The notes under the pieces: model-generated
Seen by the model: only the letters and a program-made list of their open reading frames with translations
What the model was told of the DNA's origin: nothing
Database searches by the model: none
In this document: piece after piece, positions 13,178-17,315 of the stretch
Layout of the letters: each line of letters opens with the position of its first letter
Position numbering within the stretch: position 1 is the first letter of the stretch
Assembly (NCBI GenBank): GCA_002691795.1
Contig: NZIY01000058.1
Span: 1 to 20,895, forward strand
Origin: SAR116 cluster bacterium
Lineage (GTDB): Bacteria; Pseudomonadota; Alphaproteobacteria; Puniceispirillales; Marisalimonadaceae
Direction of reading: 5' to 3'
Length of the DNA: 20,895 nt
Position numbers and translations under genes: made by a program

Positions 13178-15310
<2,133 letters not shown>

Positions 15311-15346
15311 TTATGAAAACCTTTCTGATAATATCGTTATATTTAG

Positions 15347-15375
15347 AATATATTAATTGGGTATATTAATGTCAA
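15347..15375 (-). promoter_or_regulatory. katG promoter
   Basis: On the - strand, a perfect -35 TTGACA (15375 to 15370) is followed after exactly 17 bases by TATATT (15352 to 15347), five of six -10 consensus bases. Transcription should start near 15340, giving a leader of about 30 bases before the katG ATG at 15310. The -35 begins four bases after the Irr-box-like palindrome. This is the strongest promoter match I found in the window. Confidence 0.7.
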
Positions 15376-15379
15376 CAGG

Positions 15380-15394
15380 TTAGAATAATTCTAA
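15380..15394 (-). promoter_or_regulatory. Irr-box (iron control element)-like operator
   Basis: The 15-base palindrome TTAGAATAATTCTAA has perfect 6-bp arms (TTAGAA and TTCTAA) around a 3-bp centre, which matches the Irr-box architecture known from alphaproteobacteria as I remember it. It lies between irr and katG and overlaps the irr stop codon (15391-15393). Its centre is about 47 bases upstream of the predicted katG transcription start, directly before the -35. A site placed there is more typical of activation than of steric repression. That reading is inference; the palindrome itself is directly visible. Confidence 0.7.
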
Positions 15395-15822
15395 ACTAGA
15401 TTTTTACTCTCTAATTTTATAAGAACCTCTATTCCATCATTTTCAAAACCGTTCGGGATTTTGGGAAGTTTAGAAAAGCCGATTTCATCAGGCTCAATAT
15501 CAATTAATTCTCCAGTTTCCTGATTAAGAAAATGATGGTGGCACGATACATTTGTATCAAAAATTGTGACTTCACCCTGTTGGTCTATTTGTTTTAAGAG
15601 ACCTACACTTACAAATTTGTTTAAACAATTATATATTGTTGCTAGAGAAATGCTCTGACCTTTAGATAATACCTCTTTTTGAATTGTTTCGGCTGTAAAG
15701 TGTTTATTTGTTCCATCCAAAATTTGGTTGGCCAAAAGAATTCTTTGCTTAGTAGGTCTTAAATTAACATTTCTTAACTTTTCTACTATATCCATAATAT
15801 TACTATAATTATCCTTATGCAT
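15391..15822 (-). CDS. irr: Iron response regulator Irr (Fur family)
   Basis: Fur-superfamily transcription factor of 143 residues. The winged-helix DNA-binding region spans about residues 15-80 (LRPTKQRILLA, then SLATIYNCLNKF). The Irr-specific heme-binding histidines are His95-His97 in the CHHHF segment, following FDTN, and LIDIEPDE comes after. There are no CxxC structural zinc sites of Fur or PerR and no N-terminal Cys-Pro heme regulatory motif as in Bradyrhizobium Irr, so it resembles the shorter Irr form. Irr senses heme/iron status and binds DNA when iron is low. The start is uncertain: neither the ATG at 15822 nor the in-frame ATG at 15795 (Met10) has a clear ribosome binding site. 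katG lies 80 bp downstream on the same strand. Confidence 0.88.
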   Translation of the reverse strand: MHKDNYSNIMDIVEKLRNVNLRPTKQRILLANQILDGTNKHFTAETIQKEVLSKGQSISLATIYNCLNKFVSVGLLKQIDQQGEVTIFDTNVSCHHHFLNQETGELIDIEPDEIGFSKLPKIPNGFENDGIEVLIKLESKNLV

Positions 15823-15832
15823 TCTTTGTCAA
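15802..15832 (-). promoter_or_regulatory. Possible irr promoter overlapping its annotated start
   Basis: On the - strand TTGACA (15832 to 15827) is followed after 19 bases by TATAGT (15807 to 15802). These flank the ATG at 15822. Transcription about 7 bases after the -10 would begin at or next to the second in-frame ATG (15795), which would give a leaderless message for a 134-residue Irr. The 19-base spacer is longer than ideal and AT-rich sequence yields chance matches, so this is a weak call. Confidence 0.28.
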
Positions 15833-15849
15833 GTATTTGAATTAATAAT

Positions 15850-15858
15850 TGATATAAT
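15850..15858 (+). promoter_or_regulatory. Extended -10 promoter for the amidase gene
   Basis: TGATATAAT is a perfect extended -10 element (TGn plus TATAAT) in the 74-bp divergent gap between irr and the amidase gene. No strong -35 is spaced correctly for it. An alternative pair, TTGAAT at 15837-15842 and TATGAT at 15859-15864 (16-base spacer), overlaps it. Either would start transcription around 15865-15871, some 25-32 bases before the ATG at 15897. Confidence 0.45.
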
Positions 15859-15896
15859 TATGATGTGTAATAAAGTTATCCTTTTAAGGATTTAAA

Positions 15897-17315
15897 ATGA
15901 GTGAAATATCAAATCTACCTGCCTATGAAGCAAGAAAACTAATTGGACAAAAGCAAATTTCATCAACAGAAATTGTAAAAAGTTGCCTTGAGCAATACGA
16001 AAAGTACAATCCAGATGTAAATGCAATTGTAGCTATTGATAAAAAAGATGTTCTTAAACAAGCAAAAAATTGTGATGAAGAAGTCTTAAAAGGTCAACCT
16101 TTAGGATTACTTCATGGATTACCTGTTGGTATTAAAGATCTTCAAATGGTTAAGAACCTTAGATCTACATATGGATCATTATTATACAAAGATCATATAC
16201 CAAATAATGATGATGATATTATTAAAAATCTTCGGGAAGAAGGTGCTATTATTTTTTGTAAGACTAATACGCCTGAATTTGGTGCTGGAGCTAATACAAA
16301 AAATAAAGTTTATGGTGCAACTGGAAACCCATTTCAGTTTAATCTTACTTCCGCCGGATCTTCAGGAGGAAGCGCTGCTGCATTATCACTCAACATGATA
16401 TCACTCGCAACTGGAACTGACTATGGAGGAAGCTTGAGGACACCTGCTAGTTTTTGCGGTGTAACTGGCTTCAGACCTTCACCTGGGATGGTTCCATCTA
16501 CTGAAGGAATAAAATTAAACCCCTTTTCTGTGGCGGGTCCGATGGGAAGAGATGTAAGAGATGCCTATCTATTGTTACAAGCAATAGTTAATATTGATAA
16601 TAGTGATATTTTTTCAAGTTTAAATTCATTTTCTCTTCCTTCAGAACTTATACCATCAGATTTATCATCAATCAAAATGGCCTTTTCCAGTGATCTGGGT
16701 TGTGCACCAGTGGATAATGATATTAAAAAAGTTTTTCTTAAGAAAATTGAAATTATTAAAAGTTATTTTCATTATGCGAATAATGATCATCCAGACTTTT
16801 TAAATATACATGATTGTTTTGAAGTAATAAGAGGTTTTAATTATGTGACCTCTCATCTTGAAAAGGTTAAAAAAGATAAAGATCTATTAGGTCCAAATGT
16901 TATTGACAACGTAGAAAGAGGTCTTAAGTTTTCTATGGAGGATATAACTTGGGGTCATCAAGAACAAACTAAAATTTATAATAATTTTAGAAAGTTTTTT
17001 GAAAATTATGATGTTTTAATTTGTCCTGCTGCTTCTGTATCACCTTTTCCACATGAAAATCTTTATGTTGAACAAATTAATAAAGAAAAACTCCCTACTT
17101 ACATGAGATGGCTTGCACTTAGTTACGCTCCTACAATGGCTATACCTTGTGCTTGGGCATTACCATGTGGATTAGATCATAAAGAATTACCATTTGGCAT
17201 TCAATTAGTTGCCCCTGCAGGTAATGATGCAAAATTAAGTGAGATAGCTCTAGCTATTCAGCATGCTATGTCAAATTATGAGGAAACAAAAAGAGCTATT
17301 CCAGATATAGTTTAA
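15897..17315 (+). CDS. Amidase-signature family amidohydrolase
   Basis: Amidase-signature enzyme of 472 residues that hydrolyses a carboxamide to acid plus ammonia or amine. The Ser-cisSer-Lys triad is visible: Lys80 in GLPVGIKD, Ser155 in SAGSSGGSAA, and nucleophile Ser179 in GTDYGGSLRTPA. AAGGA 6 bases before the ATG supports the start, and this site sits inside a short palindrome (15878-15891). It is unlikely to be GatA because no gatB or gatC is near. The substrate cannot be told from sequence. Neighbours on the other strand (aminotransferase, CaiB-family, FAH-family) suggest a role in organic nitrogen or acid catabolism. Its stop overlaps the aminotransferase stop by 4 bp. Confidence 0.9.
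   Translation: MSEISNLPAYEARKLIGQKQISSTEIVKSCLEQYEKYNPDVNAIVAIDKKDVLKQAKNCDEEVLKGQPLGLLHGLPVGIKDLQMVKNLRSTYGSLLYKDHIPNNDDDIIKNLREEGAIIFCKTNTPEFGAGANTKNKVYGATGNPFQFNLTSAGSSGGSAAALSLNMISLATGTDYGGSLRTPASFCGVTGFRPSPGMVPSTEGIKLNPFSVAGPMGRDVRDAYLLLQAIVNIDNSDIFSSLNSFSLPSELIPSDLSSIKMAFSSDLGCAPVDNDIKKVFLKKIEIIKSYFHYANNDHPDFLNIHDCFEVIRGFNYVTSHLEKVKKDKDLLGPNVIDNVERGLKFSMEDITWGHQEQTKIYNNFRKFFENYDVLICPAASVSPFPHENLYVEQINKEKLPTYMRWLALSYAPTMAIPCAWALPCGLDHKELPFGIQLVAPAGNDAKLSEIALAIQHAMSNYEETKRAIPDIV

Follow-up and report, generated by a model that had tools for sequence, protein, structure and literature searches.

In the 20,895-nucleotide stretch of DNA from a SAR116 cluster bacterium that was analysed here (the window), the palindrome TTAGAATAATTCTAA at the irr-katG junction is probably the operator by which the adjacent Irr-clade protein controls katG, a reading that rests on sequence comparison and to which we assign a probability of roughly 0.72. 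This names concrete candidates for the regulator that acts on katG in the SAR116 order and for the operator and promoter involved; katG is predicted to be gated by the heme and iron status of the cell. In addition, the observation is more general than an earlier note on this DNA had it, as an irr-box-rubrerythrin architecture was found by sequence in other alphaproteobacteria. One operator-promoter design thus appears to front chemically different peroxide-removing enzymes in this class, which would represent a simple case in which the operator was retained and the enzyme replaced. The features of the locus are listed in the table.

Features of the irr-katG locus (window coordinates)
Feature	Position	Strand	Basis or remark
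katG, catalase-peroxidase, 710 aa	13178..15310	-	TIGR00198, 1057 bits (cut-off 770.25)
katG transcription start, inferred from -10 position only	15340	-	
katG promoter -10, TATATT, 17-bp spacer	15347..15352	-	consensus match only
katG promoter -35, TTGACA	15370..15375	-	TTGA 4-7 bp past box core in 77/77 loci outside family f3
Predicted Irr box (ICE-type operator)	15380..15394	.	palindrome; kept at 74/81 irr-katG loci
irr, Irr-clade Fur-superfamily regulator, 143 aa from first ATG	15391..15822	-	
irr promoter-like site TTGACA-16-AATTAT, overlaps first ATG	15805..15832	-	consensus match only

The earlier note had described the palindrome as two 6-bp arms around a 3-bp centre. The palindrome is real, but its true extent is a perfect 7-1-7 (TTAGAAT-A-ATTCTAA), longer than the 6-3-6 given. 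Its distance of 4 bp to TTGACA-N17-TATATT was confirmed, bases 15376-15379 separating the box from the -35 hexamer, and the promoter itself (minus strand, TTGACA at 15375-15370 and TATATT at 15352-15347) scored 11/12 against the consensus. With a transcription start assumed 7 nt past the -10 (around 15340), the box is centred at -47, as proposed before, with its near edge at -40. The coordinates also bear out its overlap with the irr stop codon, the box covering 15380-15394 and irr ending at 15391. The consensus of the Irr box (ICE) is TTTAGAA-N3-TTCTAAA, whereas the arm of the PerR box is ATTATAA. Near the promoter, the window word TTTAGAATTATTCTAAC matched the former at 13 of 14 positions, and its arms were kept in relatives. 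Perfect 7-1-7 palindromes as such were unremarkable in this window of 32% G+C (3 observed versus 3.4 expected); for the word TTAGAANNNTTCTAA, the expectation per window is 0.01. The own assembly, which is 85% complete, contained one further zero-mismatch match, with an N in its centre and lying within a coding frame on contig C5. It is mainly because of its conservation in relatives that the palindrome is not ascribed to chance.

This conservation was considerable within the SAR116 order. Among 101 genomes, many of them incomplete, 85 contained katG, and irr was located directly upstream of katG on the same strand in 81 of these, with a gap of 75-271 bp; four katG rows without an adjacent irr were left out (L107, whose katG is truncated by the end of its contig, L109, L110, and L111). 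The box TTAGAANNNTTCTAA was present in the gap with at most 2/12 mismatches at 74 of the 81 loci (16 exact, 52 with one and six with two mismatches), the other seven gaps having three (five loci) or four (two loci). Single-letter shuffles of the gaps reached two mismatches or fewer in 174 of 4050 cases (4.3%). The earlier note had named as evidence against its proposal the case that relatives retaining irr-katG had lost the palindrome; the opposite was found, and the note's view that the adjacent Irr-clade protein probably acts on katG directly holds on this comparative ground. In the genus of the window strain (the window plus eight relatives), the word was exact in 9/9 cases, only the central A/T varying, and the symmetric arms persisted over both the order and the class. 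The distance from the box core to TTGA was 5 bp in 59 of the 77 loci considered. Family f3 was left out of this count; in its four loci (L066, L067, L106, and L108) the box overlaps the -10, the promoters being TTGACT-16-TATATT in three and TTGACA-17-TATATT in L106. The composite pattern TTTARAANNNTTCTAAN{3,6}TTGAC occurred 58 times in 56 of the 101 genomes, versus seven times in the reversed control, and 55 of the 58 matches were irr-katG sites (the others being on G065 C20, G040 C21, and G036 C14). Against the operator model, besides the seven gaps with three or four mismatches, this strict pattern was missing from 30 of the 85 katG genomes. Likewise counted against it is genome G058, in which irr and katG lie apart and no box with at most two mismatches was found in the irr stretch; a weak box-like word (2/14 mismatches) lies 38 nt before its katG (L225).

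The same architecture occurred beyond the order. Two of the best 80 irr loci from a scan of named genomes were left out of the neighbour count as their contigs end too soon (L138 and L183, the latter carrying an exact box). The gene following irr was katG in 12 cases, a rubrerythrin of about 139 aa in 18 (PF02915 in the three loci checked) and another gene in 48. Sneathiella and Parvibaculum are examples with irr followed by rubrerythrin. A box with at most 2/14 mismatches lay behind irr at 11 of the 12 katG and 14 of the 18 rubrerythrin loci of these best 80, and at none of the 48 others, for which the first 250 bp were searched; single-letter shuffled stretches contained it in 1/240, 0/360, and 0/960 cases, respectively. 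Six of the 12 named katG loci (L112-L116 and L122) share sequence with the order set. The other six comprised an unplaced alphaproteobacterium (L124), in which the box was present, and five SAR11 members (Pelagibacteraceae), four of which had a variant box, TTTAGAATNATTATAAA, near the katG start, with ATTATAA on one side and no TTGA just below. No box was found in the irr-katG gap of SAR11 locus L170 or at rubrerythrin locus L136, and both were counted against the operator model. Where a rubrerythrin locus among the best 80 had a box (at most three mismatches), TTGA lay 4-6 bp past its core in 15 of 16 cases.

Similarly, a scan of 385 genomes of the class for the strict box plus TTGAC, made blind to irr, returned 26 matches, versus none in the reversed control. 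The genes concerned were 17 rubrerythrin, three katG, one catalase, four sufB, and one DUF2061 gene, so that 21 of the 26 matches precede a peroxide-removing enzyme. All 17 rubrerythrin matches had the order irr-box-rubrerythrin, and the three irr-box-katG matches came from G000, G060, and the more distant G473; six of the 26 had no irr within the 3-kb stretch. The sets overlap, in that three of the 26 loci also belong to the named set and that G000 and G060 also belong to the order set. Some of the irr-rubrerythrin and irr-katG boxes may, reportedly, already be listed by Rodionov et al. (2006).

Several of these loci deserve mention in their own right. The catalase gene (L275) encodes a monofunctional heme catalase (PF00199, 639 bits) and has an exact box plus TTGAC, with no irr within its 3-kb stretch. 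The four sufB matches (L257-L260, from G485, G407, G310, and G179, respectively), of which L257 was identified by Pfam, all come from family f27 and have the box and a TTGAC promoter before sufB, which suggests that this gene for Fe-S cluster assembly is a further Irr-type target. In eight irr-rubrerythrin loci (L117, L118, L132, L147, L149, L158, L172, and L185), the next gene encodes a protein of 445-452 aa that is perhaps a redox partner; that of L149, which was checked, contains a cysteine-rich CCG domain.

At E 1e-15, none of the 101 order genomes gave a match to the 139-aa rubrerythrin, in a search with no positive control alongside; rubrerythrin-domain matches in 41 of these genomes were longer frames (173-352 aa). 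The absence of the short form from these results fits the idea that the enzyme was exchanged while the operator stayed. Furthermore, the katG and rubrerythrin labels were clustered on a thinned Irr tree of 98 rows (seven changes versus 42 when shuffled), 44 of its 95 inner branches being open.

The placement of an Irr-type box beside an Irr-clade gene, as first proposed, agrees with both the box word and the best model scores of the protein. Indeed, the window protein (PF01475, 71.8 bits) scored 136.4 bits with the IrrA model and 128.1 with the Irr model, versus 70.7 with the best PerR and 45.9 with the best Fur model. As both NCBIfam equivalog cut-offs were missed (136.4 versus 150 and 128.1 versus 170), the regulator is named Irr-clade and assigned to neither equivalog. 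The HxH/HHH motif of the second heme site (H95-H96-H97) was invariant in 12 sequences, as were the PerR-type metal ligand positions H41, D89, H95, H97, and D108, which align with those of Bacillus subtilis PerR (2fe3). These His and Asp positions would be equivalent in role to the regulatory metal ligands of PerR. An N-terminal heme regulatory motif of the Bradyrhizobium Irr type (Cys-Pro) was absent, no Cys occurring before C66; heme binding without that motif is described for Brucella Irr (PMC3413700). A four-cysteine structural zinc site was absent as well, the only cysteines being C66 and C94. The best structure match was 5nl9, 2fe3 matching too. The former is an atypical PerR from Leptospira that reportedly also lacks the four-cysteine structural zinc site. 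Since the HHH motif and the PerR-type ligands are invariant and the best solved relatives include PerR-type structures, the sensing of heme, iron, and peroxide by this protein are all possible. Six Fur-family places were found in the own genome, of which the irr protein query retrieved the window irr alone at E 1e-10. Two Fur-family genes with identical scores (G000, contigs C41 and C80) perhaps reflect a duplicated contig or a strain mixture.

Concerning irr expression, the true start may be Met10 (around 15795), because the first ATG overlaps a promoter-like site and several relatives align with the window protein from residue 8-10 only. A word resembling the Fur/Mur box (TTGAGAATNATTATCAA and variants) was seen some 7-11 nt ahead of the start of irr at 12 order loci (L017-L020, L025, L027, L031, L033, L034, L077, L079, and L080), where irr itself may be under Fur/Mur control. 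As to self-control, an Irr box (at most 2/14 mismatches) lay near the irr start in just two of 82 loci. A box-like word with 1-2 mismatches occurs about 50 bp before irr in five SAR11 loci (L130, L133, L163, L169, and L170), suggesting self-control there.

For a global regulon of Irr, the own genome gave no support, since box-like words were not enriched over the reversed control (30 versus 61 at one mismatch). From these 30 places, 15 loci were viewed, including that of the window; at the 14 others (L037 and L039-L051), no promoter of a gene with an iron, heme or peroxide function was recognised from position and translation. One of them (L043) has the box-like word at the beginning of a coding frame, a frame resembling SufB lying at a greater distance. 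Across 15 order genomes, a degenerate word gave at least 97 forward and at least 176 reversed-control matches among those listed; the corresponding listed matches for genome G061 were six versus none. That box-like words as such are not enriched was counted against the operator model, as were the equivalog scores below the cut-offs. None of six extra order places (L216-L221) was recognised as preceding a gene linked to iron, heme or peroxide. Similarly, no box (at most two mismatches) was found in front of a 325-aa rubrerythrin-domain gene, presumably of the mbfA type, in the six loci with a full upstream region (L209-L214). One of the genomes concerned (G006) gave no irr match of its own clade, and a further locus (L215) is a partial gene with no upstream region.

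No OxyR was found with the Escherichia coli query at E 1e-40 in the 101 order relatives, many of which are incomplete. Of six calibration genomes, four gave a match at 4e-57 or better with this query, all with another irr neighbour, and the two of the rubrerythrin type gave 3e-29 at best; the latter matches were taken as paralogues. Extending the question to 56 of the best 80 named genomes (6 + 50), OxyR was found in 31. These comprised three of the 21 genomes with a box (at most three mismatches) and 28 of the 35 in which no such box was present (Fisher p 3e-6). Independent tree pairs were too few for this contrast, two lying on supported branches, so that the anticorrelation may reflect ancestry. 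A replacement of OxyR by Irr is put forward as a hypothesis. In its broadest and still tentative form, which we rate well short of even odds, an Irr-clade protein linked in cis to one peroxide-removing enzyme would be the peroxide- and heme-responsive master of peroxide defence in alphaproteobacteria lacking OxyR, including the abundant marine lineages SAR116 and SAR11, the enzyme having changed between non-heme rubrerythrin and heme-containing KatG or catalase while the operator was kept. SAR116 and SAR11 bacteria inhabit sunlit, iron-poor seawater that contains peroxide.

The module that appears to recur in alphaproteobacteria would hence consist of irr, an Irr box, 4-7 bp, a TTGAC promoter, and a peroxide-removing enzyme, this being KatG in the SAR116 order and SAR11 and mostly rubrerythrin elsewhere. 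When iron and heme are scarce, Irr would be in its DNA-binding form, sit against the -35 and hinder RNA polymerase, so that heme would not be spent on KatG; when they are plentiful, Irr would leave and the strong promoter would fire. Peroxide might also cause release, possibly by oxidising the metal or heme site. The favoured sign of control is the one suggested by the near-consensus promoter, the f3 box over the -10, and the SAR11 box near the katG start, namely repression relieved by heme or iron and perhaps by peroxide, which we hold to be reasonably probable. A condition-dependent sign is less likely than either repression or activation.

Activation, which the earlier note had suggested from the box position, is not favoured and seems unlikely. 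Irr bound around -47 would then contact RNA polymerase and raise katG during stress or a shortage of iron or heme. Its possibility is kept by the tight box-TTGA spacing outside f3 (4-7 bp in 77/77 loci, and 4-6 bp at the rubrerythrin loci mentioned above), and most genes were higher in the Rhodobacter sphaeroides wild type than in the irr mutant (PMC3413700). However, a promoter with 11/12 consensus positions should need no help, the f3 box overlaps the -10, and, as an argument rather than data, making more of a heme enzyme while heme is scarce would be wasteful. In a further interpretation, the protein would be a PerR-like, metal-dependent peroxide sensor dedicated to katG, heme being uninvolved. 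The invariant ligand positions, the matches to 5nl9 and 2fe3, and the failure to find OxyR in the relatives at the threshold used speak for it, but heme-sensing Irr proteins have the same ligands, the structural zinc site is lacking, PerR models reached at most 71 bits versus 136 for IrrA, and the box arm is TTCTAA instead of ATTATAA, the SAR11 variant having the latter on one side. We regard this as rather doubtful, if somewhat less so than activation.

Two other readings carry far less weight. The palindrome might be bound by a Fur/Mur-type regulator or be an A/T-rich upstream promoter element, the nearness of irr being incidental; Fur homologues are present in the genome, the element just above the -35 is A/T-rich, and the class-scan matches with no irr in the 3-kb stretch would be accommodated. 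This is very improbable in view of the restriction of the box behind irr to loci with katG or rubrerythrin next (25/30 versus 0/48 in the best 80 named loci), the persistence of the symmetric arms, and the different sequence of the Fur-box-like word near the irr start. Least probable, and rejected here, is the proposal that Irr mainly acts as a roadblock to irr-katG read-through. The stop-codon overlap at the window locus and the failure to find terminator-like sites in 14500-16000 would suit it, but the overlap was present in just three of 81 loci and is thus considered incidental, the box otherwise lying between the genes with its distance to the -35 kept.

Compared with known systems, the predicted arrangement resembles OxyR-katG of Proteobacteria in placing katG of the peroxide defence under a dedicated regulator. 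Unlike the present regulator, however, OxyR is a LysR-type activator, for which the 101 relatives gave no match at E 1e-40. With PerR-katA/katG of Bacillus and others, the locus shares a Fur-superfamily protein, there a repressor, next to a catalase-type gene, as well as the kept metal ligand positions; it differs in that Irr models score best, structural zinc cysteines are lacking, and the box is of the Irr type. The Irr regulon of Rhizobiales and Rhodobacter has the same box sequence, as judged from its general consensus. According to PMC3413700, R. sphaeroides Irr binds the promoters of mbfA and of the heme peroxidase gene ccpA (cytochrome c peroxidase), so that the earlier portrayal of a heme-dependent peroxide enzyme as an unusual Irr target was overstated. 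The same source reports that the catalase gene katE is not bound, which was counted against the operator model, and that, when iron is limiting, ccpA is a little higher in the irr mutant. Transcription of ccpA begins some 40 nt downstream of its Irr box (PMC3413700), a geometry similar to that of katG, with its near edge at -40 from the assumed start. Unlike the Rhodobacter mbfA target described there, the mbfA-type gene of the order had no box in front in the six loci mentioned. What sets the SAR116 arrangement apart from the Rhizobiales/Rhodobacter regulon is a katG target directly behind irr, with nearly all order matches falling on that one promoter (55/58).
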